Source of the DNA: Chromohalobacter moromii
GTDB lineage: Bacteria; Pseudomonadota; Gammaproteobacteria; Pseudomonadales; Halomonadaceae
Direction of reading: 5' to 3'
NCBI RefSeq assembly: GCF_023091865.1
Contig: NZ_JAHXDI010000003.1
Location: forward strand, 496,001 to 560,000
Length of the DNA: 64,000 nucleotides
The notes under the pieces were generated by a model. It was not told the DNA's origin and made no database searches. It saw only the letters and a list, made by a program, of their open reading frames with translations. Each line of letters starts with the position of its first letter. Positions within the stretch are counted from its first letter, which is position 1. The translations under genes and the position numbers were made by a program. This document shows, in pieces, positions 8,597-58,546 of this stretch.

Positions 8597-9397
8597 ATGT
8601 CCGCTGAGCAGCGCCAGGACATCCCATTGACCGTCGCCGGTCGCGTCTTCTCATCACGCCTGCTGGTGGGTACCGGCAAATACCGGGATTTCGACGAGAC
8701 CGCCGCCGCCGTCGAGGCGAGTGGCACCGAGCTCGTCACCGTCGCGGTGCGCCGCACCAACTTGGGCCAGAATCCCGATGAGCCCAATCTGCTCGACGCT
8801 GTGCCGATGAGCCGTTACACGATCCTGCCCAACACGGCGGGCTGCTATACCGCCAAGGACGCGGTGCGGACCTGCAAGCTGGCCCGCGAGCTGCTCGACG
8901 GCCACAACTTGGTCAAGCTCGAGGTGCTGGGCGATGATGGCACGCTTTACCCCAATGTGGTCGAGACCCTCAAGGCCGCTGAGACGCTGGTCAACGACGG
9001 TTTCGATGTCATGGTCTACACCAGCGATGACCCTATCGTCGCCAAGGAGTTGGAGCGCATCGGCTGTTGCGCGGTGATGCCGCTGGGCTCATTGATCGGC
9101 TCGGGGCATGGCCTGCTCAATCCGGCAACGCTTGAGATCATCCTCGGCAATGCCGAGGTACCGATTCTCGTCGATGCCGGTATCGGCACGCCCTCGGATG
9201 CTGCGCTGGCCATGGAAATGGGCTGCGCCGGCGTGCTGATCAATTCTGCCATCGCCAACGCACGACAACCGGTGCGCATGGCGCATGCCATGAAACTGGC
9301 GGTGGAGGCAGGGCGTGAGGCGTATCTCGCCGAACGCATGCCACGTCGGGCATCGGCGAGCCCGTCGTCGCCCTTCGCCGGGCGCATCAACGCCTGA
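8597..9397 (+). CDS. thiG: ThiG thiazole synthase
   Basis: This 266-residue enzyme condenses deoxyxylulose phosphate, dehydroglycine and ThiS-thiocarboxylate into the thiazole phosphate moiety of thiamine. Family marks are the N-terminal [15 protein letters not shown], the Schiff-base lysine in VKLEVLGDD (about residue 98), and the phosphate loops [12 protein letters not shown] and [11 protein letters not shown]. It starts behind AGGAGG (8585-8590). The C-terminal tail ([18 protein letters not shown]) is usual for proteobacterial ThiG. Length matches the family. Confidence 0.96.
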
Positions 9398-9455
9398 ACC
9401 CTTTCGCGGCCCGCACGGCCTGCTTCGCTACCTGATCGACAACGCAGACTTGCCC

Positions 9456-10205
9456 ATGAGTGATTCACCATCGTCTTCCCCCGAGAACGCCCCTGAGGCG
9501 GGCTCGGCGTCATCCTCGCGCCCACCGCGCGGTATCAAGAGTTATGTACTGCGCGCCGGACGCATGACCGTTGCTCAGTCGCGGGGGCTCGAAGAGGTTT
9601 GGCCGCGCCTGGGGCTAAGCGTGGCCGATGGCCGCCAGTCGCTGGAGACTGTGTTCGGTCGGCAGGCACCTTGTGTCGTCGAGATTGGCTTCGGCATGGG
9701 ACAGTCGCTCGTCGAGCAAGCCGCCGCCAATCCCGAGACCGACTTCATCGGCATCGAGGTGCATGCGCCGGGTGTTGGCAAGCTGCTTGATGAAGCGGAT
9801 AAGCGCGGCCTGACCAACCTGCGCGTGTACCGCGAGGACGCGTTGGAAGTGCTCGGTAAGTGTCTACCCGAGTCGAGCCTAACGGGGCTGCAGCTGTTTT
9901 TCCCCGACCCCTGGCCGAAGAAGAAGCACCACAAGCGGCGCATCGTGCAGCCGGCCTTCGTCGAACTGGTACGCACGCGTCTGGCGCCTGGCGGGTATCT
10001 GCACATGGCGACCGATTGGGAAGCCTACGCCGAGCACATGGTCGAGGTCATGGAGGCGGCGCCGGGCTATCGCAACACGGCGTCGGCTGAGAGCGCGCCC
10101 TATGTGCCGCGCCCGGAATTCCGCCCGCTGACCAAGTTCGAGAGCCGTGGCGAAAAGCTTGGCCATGGGGTCTGGGATTTGATCTATGCCCGTGAGGACG
10201 GATGA
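9456..10205 (+). CDS. trmB: TrmB, tRNA (guanine-N7)-methyltransferase
   Basis: This 249-residue enzyme methylates G46 of tRNAs using SAM. The Rossmann core has [11 protein letters not shown] (SAM loop), [16 protein letters not shown], and the TrmB-specific [15 protein letters not shown]. The N-terminal 35 residues are Ser/Pro-rich and probably disordered. ATG 9456 is chosen because upstream in-frame codons overlap thiG and lack family similarity. It is the third gene of thiS-thiG-trmB, an order common in proteobacteria, and is followed by a strong terminator. Confidence 0.93.
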
Positions 10206-10264
10206 GCGCACGTTGCAGCACCGCTCTCACAGAACACTTTCAACATAGAACGCTGATTTCCTCG

Positions 10265-10290
10265 AAAACCGCTGCTTGCAGCGGTTTTTT
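10265..10290 (+). terminator. Rho-independent terminator after trmB
   Basis: AACCGCTGC (10267-10275), a two-base loop and GCAGCGGTT (10278-10286) form a 9-base perfect stem with a run of six T from 10285. It ends the thiS-thiG-trmB unit. Between here and the next signal at 10390 I see no further gene. Confidence 0.9.
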
Positions 10291-10389
10291 CGATTCTGGC
10301 TGATCTGAATCACGTCACGGCGAGCAAGACGCTGGCAAAGTGCTGCCTGCCTTGGTCCTGTTCATTTCATGCCGCTCTGCGATGAACCT

Positions 10390-10416
10390 AAAAAAAGCCG
10401 CCCGGGTGGGCGGCTT
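10390..10416 (-). terminator. terminator of the candidate small RNA
   Basis: Leftward, AAGCCGCCC (10416-10408), loop ACCC and GGGCGGCTT (10403-10395) make a 9-base perfect stem followed by seven U (10396-10390). On the other strand there is no U run, so it acts leftward. It may also stop read-through from the AEC permease gene. Confidence 0.85.
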
Positions 10417-10505
10417 AAAGACCGTGACTAGCTTGATGAGGAGATAACCATGGGCAGGAACCTGACATTCGCTGCTTAGGTCAGTGGCGCTTGGCGGCGC
10501 CACGG
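10390..10505 (-). ncRNA. candidate Fur-controlled small regulatory RNA
   Basis: Read leftward, a promoter (TTGACG, 17-base spacer, TTACCT at 10517-10512) predicts a start near 10505. The RNA would open with a strong hairpin, GTGGCGC/GCGCCAC (10503-10484), pass through a largely unpaired CU-rich stretch GGTTATCTCCTCATC (10449-10435), and end in a perfect 9-base terminator stem with seven U. CTCCTC could pair with Shine-Dalgarno sequences, as many Hfq-type RNAs do. Two Fur-like sequences overlap or flank the promoter, recalling RyhB/PrrF-type iron RNAs. There is no clear similarity to their core sequences, and no plausible protein is coded here. Length about 116 nt. Confidence 0.55.
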
Positions 10506-10511
10506 TTGTTA

Positions 10512-10560
10512 AGGTAAACCATTCTCATTTGAGTCGTCAAGCGTAACGAGAATATTTTTC
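10512..10560 (-). promoter_or_regulatory. small-RNA promoter with two Fur-box-like sequences
   Basis: The promoter hexamers are TTGACG (10540-10535) and TTACCT (10517-10512). TCAAATGAGAATGGTTTAC across the spacer matches the 19-base Fur consensus at 11 positions. On the other strand the sequence at 10541-10559 (containing TAACGAGAAT) matches at 12. The GAGAAT cores are typical of gammaproteobacterial Fur sites. fur itself lies at 58094. Confidence 0.45.
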
Positions 10561-10580
10561 AATTAGTCTCATCGGGAGGC

Positions 10581-11495
10581 TCAACTCGCCAGTGCCATCC
10601 ATGCTGGCAGCGTCACCATGGCCAGCAGGGTCTGGCCGGTAATTAGCGCCGCCATCAGCTCGGCGTCACCGCCTAGCTGGCGGGCGAGGATATACGCCGA
10701 GGTGGCGGTGGGTAAGGCGGCGAACAGAAGAGCGATGTCGCGGCTCACTGGGTCGAGCCCGGTCAGCCAGGCTAGGGCCAGTACGATCACGGGGGTGGCG
10801 ACAAGCTTGAGCGTGGCCGAGTACCAGAACGCATGCCCGCTGCCGACAAGGGCACTGGGTCGCAGTGCCACGCCTACGGCAATCAACCCTAGCGGAAGGG
10901 CGGCACGGCCAGTGAGTTCGACGGCGCTGCCCAGCCAACCCGGCAGACCGATGCCGGTGACATTGAGGGCGATACCGAGTACACAGGCCAGGATCAGGGG
11001 GTTACGCAACAGGGCAGCCAGGCTGCGCCCCAGGCTAGAAGGCCCCAGCGTGCCCGCGGCGATGAAACCGCTCACGCAGAGAATGTTGGCCAGCGGGACC
11101 ATCAATGCAACGGCGACTGCGGCTACCGTCGCCCCAGCTTGGCCATGTAGCGCGGCGGCGCCGGCGACCCCTACGTAAGTATTGAAGCGCAGCGTGCCTT
11201 GTAGCACCGAGGTGAACGCCGATGGCGCCAGCGCGAGGCGATGACGCGCGCACCAGAGCCCCAGCGCGAACAGTGCCATGGTGCCCATCAATACCACGGC
11301 CAGGCGGATGACCGGCACCTGCGCCACATTCGCCGTAGCCAGCGTCGAGACCAGCATGGCGGGGAACAGCAGAAAGTAGATCAGCCGTTCCATCGCGGGC
11401 CAGAAATCGCCTCCGGGAAAACGCCGCCAACCCAGCAGGGCGCCGAGTAGAATCAGTAAAAACAGAGGGCCCAGGGCCCCAGTGACACCGCTCAT
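10581..11495 (-). CDS. AEC-family permease (auxin efflux carrier superfamily)
   Basis: This 304-residue protein has about ten membrane segments in two five-helix halves, the layout of the AEC family. The N-terminus (LGPLFLLILLGALLGWRRF) and the C-terminal region (ALPTATSAYILARQLGGDAELMAALITGQTLLAMVTLP) are characteristic. Bacterial members are usually annotated as malate or other organic-anion permeases; the substrate here is unknown. It is divergent from the next gene to the right and has no terminator of its own before the small-RNA locus. Confidence 0.85.
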   Translation of the reverse strand: MSGVTGALGPLFLLILLGALLGWRRFPGGDFWPAMERLIYFLLFPAMLVSTLATANVAQVPVIRLAVVLMGTMALFALGLWCARHRLALAPSAFTSVLQGTLRFNTYVGVAGAAALHGQAGATVAAVAVALMVPLANILCVSGFIAAGTLGPSSLGRSLAALLRNPLILACVLGIALNVTGIGLPGWLGSAVELTGRAALPLGLIAVGVALRPSALVGSGHAFWYSATLKLVATPVIVLALAWLTGLDPVSRDIALLFAALPTATSAYILARQLGGDAELMAALITGQTLLAMVTLPAWMALAS

Positions 11496-11613
11496 TGTGC
11501 CTCCGCTTGAGCAACTTCATGGACACCGGACGCTGACTGCAGCCAAGCTCGCCGGGACACGAACTGGTAAGCTTAGCGCGATGCCCCTGGGTAATGGGAT
11601 TCGACCTAACGAT

Positions 11614-12105
11614 ATGCAACATCATGATGAAGATCCGGTAAGATCGCCGCTGCTCAATCTACTGACGCTAGTAACGCTGATAACGGTTCTGGTAGCGGCT
11701 GGTTATCTCGCCGACTATTACCTGCGTGATTCGCGCGAGAACGTCACCTGGTATCCCCCGCGTATGCATTGCGATCTACGCGACGGGGCGTGCCGTACCG
11801 ATATCGGCTTGAGTGGGACGTTGCGCTTCGAGATACACGGCGACTTCGCCTCGTACGAGCCGTTGACGCTGGATGTGCAGACATCCGGTATCGAGGTGGC
11901 GTCGGCGGTCGTGGAGTTCGTCGGACGTGACATGAATATGGGCCTTACTCGGGTCGAGCTGGAAGAGGTCGGTGATGGCCACTTCCGAGGCGTGGGCGAG
12001 CTCCGTCCTTGCACGGAAACGGTCATGCCGTGGCGGGCACAAGTGATTCTCACAACCCCTGAGGGGCAAGAGGGGAGCTGGTTCGATTTCGATATTCACC
12101 GCTAG
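11614..12105 (+). CDS. membrane-anchored hypothetical protein, FixH-like layout
   Basis: About 163 residues from ATG 11614: an acidic/His-rich cytoplasmic start (MQHHDEDP), one membrane segment (about residues 12-33), then a periplasmic domain of about 130 residues rich in beta-strand pattern. Two cysteines (MHCDLRDGACR) lie close together in the latter and could form a disulfide. The membrane anchor followed by a small beta domain recalls FixH-like proteins, but there are no cytochrome-oxidase genes nearby and I cannot assign a family. The start is uncertain: ATG 11581 is in frame and neither has a strong ribosome site. High-GC codon use supports a real gene. Confidence 0.6.
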   Translation: MQHHDEDPVRSPLLNLLTLVTLITVLVAAGYLADYYLRDSRENVTWYPPRMHCDLRDGACRTDIGLSGTLRFEIHGDFASYEPLTLDVQTSGIEVASAVVEFVGRDMNMGLTRVELEEVGDGHFRGVGELRPCTETVMPWRAQVILTTPEGQEGSWFDFDIHR

Positions 12106-55731: not shown

Positions 55732-56111
55732 TGGTGGAGGCGGGGGGAATTGAACCCCCGTCCGCCGGCACTCACCCATCGGCTCTACATGCTTAGGTCC
55801 GTCTTTTAATTTAGCGCCTCTGGCTCCGACGGGCAGGATCCAGCGACGCGATTCCTCTAAGTTTTAGCGGCTGACGCGAGGACAAAGCCAGCCGCGATCC
55901 CATCAATCTGAGCTCGTATCCCATCGGTGATGAATGGGCACATCACCTCCGGGCCGGACTAGAAGCTAGCAGTTGTTACGCTGCCAGCGCGCCCTGAGCG
56001 TAGTTGTCGTCGTTTGCGACTATTTTATCGTAACGTTGGATTTACGAGATACGTTACGCTCTCGGCATGCACCTCAGGGATTGTCACCGGCGTCGAAGCC
56101 ATGTCGCCCCC
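55732..56111 (-). ncRNA. ssrA: tmRNA (ssrA), tag ANDDNYAQGALAA
   Basis: The 380-base RNA starts GGGGGCGACATGGCTTCGAC and ends with a TpsiC-like arm (GGTTCAATTCC) and CGCCTCCACCA. The acceptor stem pairs GGGGGCG with CGCCTCC (one G-U). The tag frame runs from the resume codon GCA at 56017 to TAA at 55976, encoding ANDDNYAQGALAA, whose LAA end directs proteolysis. tmRNA frees stalled ribosomes together with SmpB, whose gene lies 110 bases upstream on the same strand. Confidence 0.97.
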
Positions 56112-58093: not shown

Positions 58094-58546
58094 ATGGCCG
58101 ATCAGAACCATGAACTGCGCAAGGCGGGGCTAAAAGTCACCTTGCCGCGTGTCAAGATCCTGCAAATTCTCGAAAGTACGCAGGACCAACACCATCTGAG
58201 CGCCGAAGATGTCTACAAAGCTCTGCTCGACGCAGGTGACGATGTCGGTCTGGCAACTGTGTATCGTGTCTTGACCCAGTTCGAGACGGCGGGGCTGGTG
58301 ATTCGTCACAATTTCGATGGCGGCCATGCCGTGTTCGAATTGTCGCAGGAAGAGCACCATGATCATATGGTGTGCTTGGAAAGCGGCGAGATCATCGAGT
58401 TCTTCGACGACACCATCGAGCGGCGACAACGCGAGATTGCCGAGGAGCACGGTTTCGAGCTCGTTGACCATGCGTTGGTGTTGTACGTACGTCCCAAGGG
58501 GTCTAGCGTGACGCGTCAAGAAGGCTCGGGGCCCGGCAAGAAGTAG
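58094..58546 (+). CDS. fur: Fur ferric-uptake regulator
   Basis: A 150-residue metal-dependent repressor. The winged-helix domain covers about 1-82 (AEDVYKALLDAGDDVGLATVYRVL), then the metal-binding and dimer domain with HHDHMVC (88-94). Only Cys94 is present; the second cysteine of the E. coli CxxC is Ser97, as also in Pseudomonas Fur, so it lacks that structural zinc site. It represses iron uptake genes when Fe2+ is bound, and could control the candidate RNA at 10.4 kb. Confidence 0.97.
   Translation: MADQNHELRKAGLKVTLPRVKILQILESTQDQHHLSAEDVYKALLDAGDDVGLATVYRVLTQFETAGLVIRHNFDGGHAVFELSQEEHHDHMVCLESGEIIEFFDDTIERRQREIAEEHGFELVDHALVLYVRPKGSSVTRQEGSGPGKK

Follow-up and report, generated by a model that had tools for sequence, protein, structure and literature searches.

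What kind of RNA, if any, is encoded in the gap between trmB and the AEC permease gene of Chromohalobacter moromii? The original prediction, made from the sequence letters, saw there a complete transcription unit with no protein, a previously unlisted RNA that it could recognise neither as PrrF nor as RyhB, the Fur-repressed, Hfq-assisted, iron-sparing RNA. We analysed the 64,000-nucleotide stretch of contig NZ_JAHXDI010000003.1 that holds this gap (positions 496,001 to 560,000; hereafter the window, to which coordinates refer unless a contig is named), together with related loci and genomes. Judged by sequence comparison, the RNA appears to be a diverged relative of the Pseudomonas PrrF iron-sparing RNAs; it is a known kind of RNA, and what is new is an under-annotated, family-wide PrrF homologue in Halomonadaceae.

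The transcription unit and its conservation

The predicted promoter was found as claimed, on the minus strand, with 17 bases between TTGACG and TTACCT and a poor -10 element; a consensus promoter scanner reported none in 9000–12000. Both Fur-box counts of the original prediction were also correct (11/19 at 10514–10532 on the minus strand and 12/19 at 10542–10560 on the plus strand), and the proximal box gives a second register, 13/19 against the Fur consensus, at 10508–10526 on the plus strand. Scores of at least 11/19 occur at 172 window positions, so that box counts alone are unremarkable, and the Fur-like boxes stand above chance because they are conserved across relatives, not by their score. 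Of 101 distinct upstream regions, 86 contain the pattern AATG[AC][GT]AA, against a mean of 1.1 and a maximum of 4 after shuffling; the distal-box pattern occurs in 68 of 103 (mean 0.2 and maximum 2 after shuffling). Both patterns were picked after the alignment was seen, and the upstream regions are mutually related. With box scores so common and no promoter from the scanner, the sequence alone is therefore no proof of a gene, which comes instead from comparison. A plus-strand terminator-like hairpin after trmB (10271–10285) opposes the terminator of the small RNA, an arrangement of convergent units.

Table 1. Features of the proposed PrrF-type RNA gene and its probable regulator in the window.
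Feature	Coordinates	Strand	Basis
-35 element, TTGACG	10535..10540	-	Direct reading; TTGAC aligned to PrrF model positions 1–5
-10 element, TTACCT, weak; TTATCT in many relatives	10512..10517	-	Direct reading and alignment of relatives
Proximal Fur-like box, core AAATGAGAATGGTTTACC, between -35 and -10	10508..10532		Aligned to the Fur box within RF00444
Distal Fur-like box, AACGAGAATATTTTTC on the plus strand	10542..10560		12/19 match; equivalent in relatives
Small RNA, PrrF homologue, ~117–119 nt	10389..10507	-	RF00444 and R1 matches; ends predicted
5' hairpin, GTGGCGC-loop-GCGCCAC, 7 pairs	10484..10503	-	Folding; A1 helix 1
Middle stem-loop, GAAU/GUUC around GUCAG	10458..10470	-	A1 helix 2
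Pairing core GGUUAUCUCCUCAUCAAGCUAGUCACGGUC, CU-rich	10420..10449	-	Alignment A1; RF00444 consensus
Intrinsic terminator, 9-pair stem (10416–10395) and T run	10389..10416	-	Terminator scan; A1 helix 3
fur gene, probable regulator	58094..58546	+	Open reading frame; PF01475, E 1.4e-44

The RNA itself, whose start we place from the position of the -10 element (10517–10512), is predicted to fold far better than shuffled sequences (z of -4.7 and -4.3, with none of 200 shuffles reaching so low a value in either case). The strong hairpin announced at its 5' end is present at 10503–10484, and the terminator is likewise as described, with a 9-base stem, seven of its nine pairs G-C, and seven T, two of which lie inside the stem. 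The CU-rich stretch said to be exposed gave a divided result: in the consensus fold of 25 sequences it is open but for two G-C pairs towards its 5' end, whereas it is partly paired when the window RNA is folded by itself at minimum energy, a fold in which the middle stem-loop is not seen as such.

These 25 sequences, from which alignment A1 and model R1 were built, comprise 24 assigned to Halomonadaceae by title or kinship and one from an unassigned gammaproteobacterium whose locus has the same neighbouring genes. Both sides have changed in 13 of the 17 pairs of the A1 helices, namely in 5 of 8 pairs of the 5' hairpin (97.5% of cells paired), in all 4 pairs of the middle stem (90.8% of cells paired) and in 4 of 5 pairs of the terminator. 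Overall, 93.9% of A1 cells are paired; shuffling gives 82.8%, with none of 500 shuffles reaching the observed value, and sliding the structure gives 35–51%. The comparison is favoured by a structure derived from the same alignment, and its shuffles ignore relatedness. Conservation of the terminator and the CU-rich core in relatives, which the original prediction had named as a check, was looked for, and both are conserved; TCTCCTCATCAAGCTAGTCACGGTC is invariant in 25 of 25 rows, an invariance that is partly by construction, 15 rows having been found by the exact core pattern and the remaining rows cut out around it. The conservation of the RNA gene in relatives supports the proposed plan of an iron-repressed, trans-acting small RNA.

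Relationship to PrrF and other readings of the locus

At curated thresholds, an Rfam scan of the whole window found only the tmRNA gene, at 55732–56111 on the minus strand. With the threshold opened, PrrF (RF00444) was the best of 4227 families, matching 10388–10540 at 54.9 bits (E 5.6e-9) over model positions 1–150 of 150, with the next lowest E at 0.037. The RF00444 model itself takes in promoter and Fur box (Rfam), and both elements of the window align within the match. The score lies 35 bits short of the gathering cut-off of 90 bits; a default Rfam scan therefore misses the RNA, and we name it a PrrF homologue and not a formal member of the family. By sequence and predicted structure, it combines the full-length model match and a Fur box in the promoter with a 5' hairpin, a middle stem, an intrinsic terminator and a core that is unpaired in the consensus (partly paired in the single fold), and this core, UUAUCUCCUCAUCAGGCUAAUCACGGUU, is identical to the RF00444 consensus at 25 of 28 positions, with 3 differences. 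The other Rfam families matched with the threshold opened were rejected, all lying below their own cut-offs with E of at least 0.037, most of them over the terminator.

The match also holds in the reverse direction. R1 finds the window RNA at 10392–10506 with 120 bits, the window being one of its 25 training sequences, and it matches 10 of 10 Pseudomonas-type loci and one from Stutzerimonas (L093) at E 8e-10 to 2e-5; in 299 kb of sequence from 89 loci retrieved on account of other genes, it gave no match at E ≤ 1. In the home genome (3.47 Mb, 6 contigs) there is one clear PrrF copy, the second match having an E of 1.3. The full-length alignment and these reciprocal matches overturn the statement that the RNA is not recognisably PrrF, and with it the claim of a new, previously unlisted RNA; with regard to RyhB the statement stands, since its model (RF00057) does not appear in the list of 16 families with E of up to 10.

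Across 151 Halomonadaceae genomes, RF00444 gave matches in 121 at E ≤ 0.1, against 0 of 14 control genomes, and reached its cut-off in none of the 151. At E ≤ 0.01, R1 was positive in 143 of 151 genomes, covering 23 of 24 genera; some of these genomes had supplied its training sequences. Taken together, one or other model detects 148 of 151 family genomes, and only G018, G054 and G076 gave no match in both searches. In the wider order, 47 of 293 genomes match RF00444 at E ≤ 0.001; the 12 that pass 90 bits all belong to one family (f21, presumably Pseudomonadaceae), with best scores of 127–162 bits, while the families outside it score 34–84 bits, several with intermediates at 60–84. The 90-bit cut-off thus shuts out the Halomonadaceae copies and all order families but f21. 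Hidden in this way, PrrF is a candidate iron-sparing regulator for the whole of Halomonadaceae, and some 150 genomes are on offer for studying the evolution of PrrF-type RNAs.

A scan of named sequences with the core pattern gave 81 stretches of 8 kb, in some of which neighbours are cut off. We take 71 of the 80 listed to be from Halomonadaceae; the others are six Oceanospirillum, one Stutzerimonas, one Oceanospirillaceae metagenome-assembled genome and one unassigned gammaproteobacterium. An AEC permease is present in 52 of the 81, within 373 bases of the core in 43 and at 1.1–1.4 kb in 9, and trmB in 53, within 470 bases in 28; both neighbours occur in 43 stretches and neither in 19. The closest named relatives of the window at this locus are Chromohalobacter. 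In four Chromohalobacter loci (L035, L049, L068, L083), the permease lies ~1.15 kb from the core instead of ~0.15 kb, indicating extra DNA in between. Two to four PrrF-type copies stand in tandem in several genera (examples are L003, L004, L007, L014–L017, L028, L034, L038, L063, L067, L109 and L287), and the first copy in L015 is without an obvious Fur-like box.

These data bear on three other explanations of the locus. The terminator and the structure upstream of it could belong to the 3' untranslated end of the permease mRNA, in keeping with a same-strand permease gene whose end, at 10581, precedes the terminator stem by 165 bases, and with the shared strand in 50 of 52 named loci that hold permease and RNA. 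We regard this as improbable, as a conserved promoter and Fur-like boxes sit between permease and RNA, the permease match is 1.1–1.4 kb from the core in 9 of the 52 loci, three Kushneria loci (L076, L079, L100) have the RNA beside trmB without a permease match, the tandem copies in L003, L004 and L007 each carry their own upstream TTGAC and Fur-like box, and the PrrF homology spans promoter and RNA alike. Slightly less probable still is an unrelated, new Fur-regulated RNA whose PrrF-like core arose by convergence: colinearity with the PrrF model along its whole 150 positions, which take in promoter and Fur box, the reciprocal R1 matches and the 60–84-bit intermediates in several other order families speak against it, although the sequence from hairpin to core aligns poorly with Pseudomonas PrrF and the score is under the cut-off.

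We give least credence of all, and almost none, to a small protein, encoded either by a 62-codon GTG frame that overlaps the RNA (10503–10315, minus strand) or by a plus-strand frame at GAGGAG-ataacc-ATG. Both frames exist in the window sequence, and the sense frame is open to the row end in several A1 rows; however, among the 25 rows, window included and all ending near the terminator, the reading frame across the invariant core varies, all three being used and some closing after 2–9 codons, the antisense frame runs for 4–23 codons in 16 rows and has no such start in 9, and base changes follow the RNA pairing. The claim that the unit holds no protein is in this way upheld: a frame overlaps the RNA, but frames are not conserved among relatives.

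Set beside PrrF1 and PrrF2, the proposed PrrF homologue is alike in its promoter with embedded Fur box, 5' hairpin, middle stem, core (25/28), terminator and predicted aconitase target, as well as in length, the P. aeruginosa RNAs measuring 114–116 nt in the available text of PMC2851614. It differs in the sequences of hairpin and middle stem, in its score 35 bits below the cut-off and in the second, distal Fur-like box, and it is single in the Chromohalobacter home genome, unlike the tandem pair of P. aeruginosa, from which a read-through RNA, PrrH, is made according to the same partial text. Pseudomonas-type 3-kb loci, unlike that of the window, are without a trmB or AEC match. In that available text, PrrF features as a Pseudomonas RNA with named iron-repressed homologues in Azotobacter vinelandii (ArrF) and Neisseria meningitidis (NrrF), and a title in its reference list links ArrF to sodB; our likening to ArrF and NrrF is by description only, and for the window RNA sod is unsupported as a target as regards the C4 copy of the home genome. 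RyhB of enterobacteria and Vibrio is alike in presumed logic, being Fur-repressed, Hfq-assisted and iron-sparing (PMC2851614, available part), and differs in that the window RNA has no RyhB model among its matches up to E 10.

Our survey of open-access papers turned up no report of a native PrrF in Halomonadaceae or in Oceanospirillales. The P. aeruginosa PrrF1 scaffold serves for synthetic repression in Halomonas bluephagenesis, according to the available parts of PMC12164125, PMC13101641 and PMC13414033, and a native PrrF network could compete with such a tool in Halomonas.

Predicted regulation and targets

We consider it highly probable that this PrrF homologue is a Fur-repressed, low-iron RNA whose core, probably with Hfq, blocks the ribosome-binding sites of iron-enzyme mRNAs, first of all acnA. 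When iron is plentiful, Fur-Fe(II) would cover the promoter and the gene would be silent; when iron is scarce, an RNA of ~117 nt would be made, and its core CUCCUCAUCAAGCUAGUCACGGUC, probably presented by Hfq, would pair with the ribosome-binding sites of iron-enzyme mRNAs, acnA foremost. By analogy with Pseudomonas PrrF and RyhB, this pairing would block translation and expose the mRNA to decay. Each of these steps, from transcription through binding by Fur and by Hfq to repression, is one that we infer for the window RNA. A fur gene lies in the same window, with its PF01475 match at G000:C3:554121–554486 (window 58121–58486), and an hfq gene is present in the home genome.

The 10-base seed complement TGATGAGGAG has 5 exact sites in the genome and the reversed pattern 0. 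These sites are the RNA itself, the Shine-Dalgarno region of acnA (TTGATGAGGAGggggcccATG), that of an ArsC-family reductase and two without a nearby start. For the 9-base complement, there are 24 sites, including the RNA's own, versus 3 for the reversed pattern; an ATG lies 6–7 bases downstream only at the acnA and ArsC-family sites, and at two more a start codon is 3 or 9 bases away. As GATGAGGAG spells Asp-Glu-Glu codons, most 9-base sites are probably coding, and we used only the two start-site cases as leads. The ArsC-family site (G000:C1:57435–57444, L214; NF008107 above its cut-off) is a ribosome-binding site and a possible extra target.

At acnA, the core is predicted to form 11 contiguous Watson-Crick pairs over the Shine-Dalgarno sequence. 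The duplex energy of -30.1 kcal/mol is below that of any of the 59 start regions in the window, whose lowest value is -26.8, and 1 of 1000 mononucleotide-shuffled cores reached it; such energies ignore accessibility, and the background start sites are those of predicted open reading frames. Within the genus, 8 of 10 genomes keep all 11 bases of the site and the other two keep 9 and 8. Outside the genus, the predicted pairing site weakens: seven other family acnA genes, 75–80% identical, keep 6–9 bases; in six of these genes, 7–53% of the background start regions pair equally well, and for the seventh, that of G003, no background region does. In three order genomes without an RF00444 match (acnA 60–71% identical), 27–97% of the background is as good. 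Two further sets lie outside the main comparison: the G002 acnA, at 63% identity and from a genome with a weak PrrF match, for which 81% of the background is as good, and nine aconitases that are 37–43% identical (L240–L248), with 5–100%, the 5% case being the second aconitase of G006, which carries TTGATGAG.

Pairing with sdhC is moderate (-23.8 kcal/mol, 5% of the background as good). In this calculation, two sdhC loci (L180, L182) gave no start, having been entered on the wrong strand, and start sites are unsure in three short loci (L177, L201, L210), none of the five being from the home genome. In P. aeruginosa, acnA, acnB, m-acnA and sdhCDAB were identified as prrF-affected (available text of PMC2851614), and for brnD, complementarity of PrrF to the Shine-Dalgarno and start region is reported (available text of PMC13104616). 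The sod gene was not supported as a target as far as its C4 copy is concerned, which shows no special pairing (-12.9 kcal/mol, 78% of the background as good); a second sod copy lies at G000:C3:411266 in the home genome.

Seed-switched copies in two genera

Two genera, g10 and g20, account for 27 of the 30 genomes missed by the RF00444 family scan under strict filters; with laxer filters, loci from G010, G069, G139 and G150 match RF00444 at 42–48 bits, and L284 (G020) gave no match at E ≤ 0.01. The g10 and g20 loci keep the promoter, boxes, hairpin and terminator; their core is GGTTTCTCC(C/T)CTCATTGCTAGTCACGGTC or a close form, and their 5' loop TTGATGAG or near to it. Among 31 copies from 26 loci, one locus per genome, CTCATT is found in the core of 30 and the loop motif in all 31, the latter occurring in 1 of 88 distinct canonical copies. 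The loop could pair with the CTCAT stretch of the core in the same RNA, and it is similar to the target site at acnA. In loci L276–L284, L287 and L319–L334, a seed CTCC(C/T)CTCATTGC or a close form replaces CTCCTCATCAAGC.

A tentative reading, which we hold to be possible and on balance doubtful, is that PrrF is old in the order of Pseudomonas and Halomonadaceae and that the g10 and g20 orthologue swapped its seed from CUCCUCAUCAAGC to CUCC(C/U)CUCAUUGC or a close form, the loop becoming UUGAUGAG or near to it, a putative self-masking or target-mimic element, and the targets being partly re-tuned. As g10 and g20 may share one ancestor, the variant may be a single event. Co-variation of seed and acnA target gave a mixed result: compared with the foreign core, taken as the better of two core forms, the native core is the stronger partner in 17 of 22 canonical, 9 of 12 g10 and only 3 of 12 g20 genomes, a further g20 genome, G114, being without an acnA match. 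In addition, the 8-base sequence ACCGTGAC recurs in 7 of 12 g20 acnA start regions and is the complement of that half of the core which has not changed. Both observations are leads only, because they come from a raw comparison without a background. The seed-switched genera offer a natural experiment on the joint change of a small RNA and its targets. An AEC match lies close to the RNA in 10 of the 10 g10 and g20 loci inspected.
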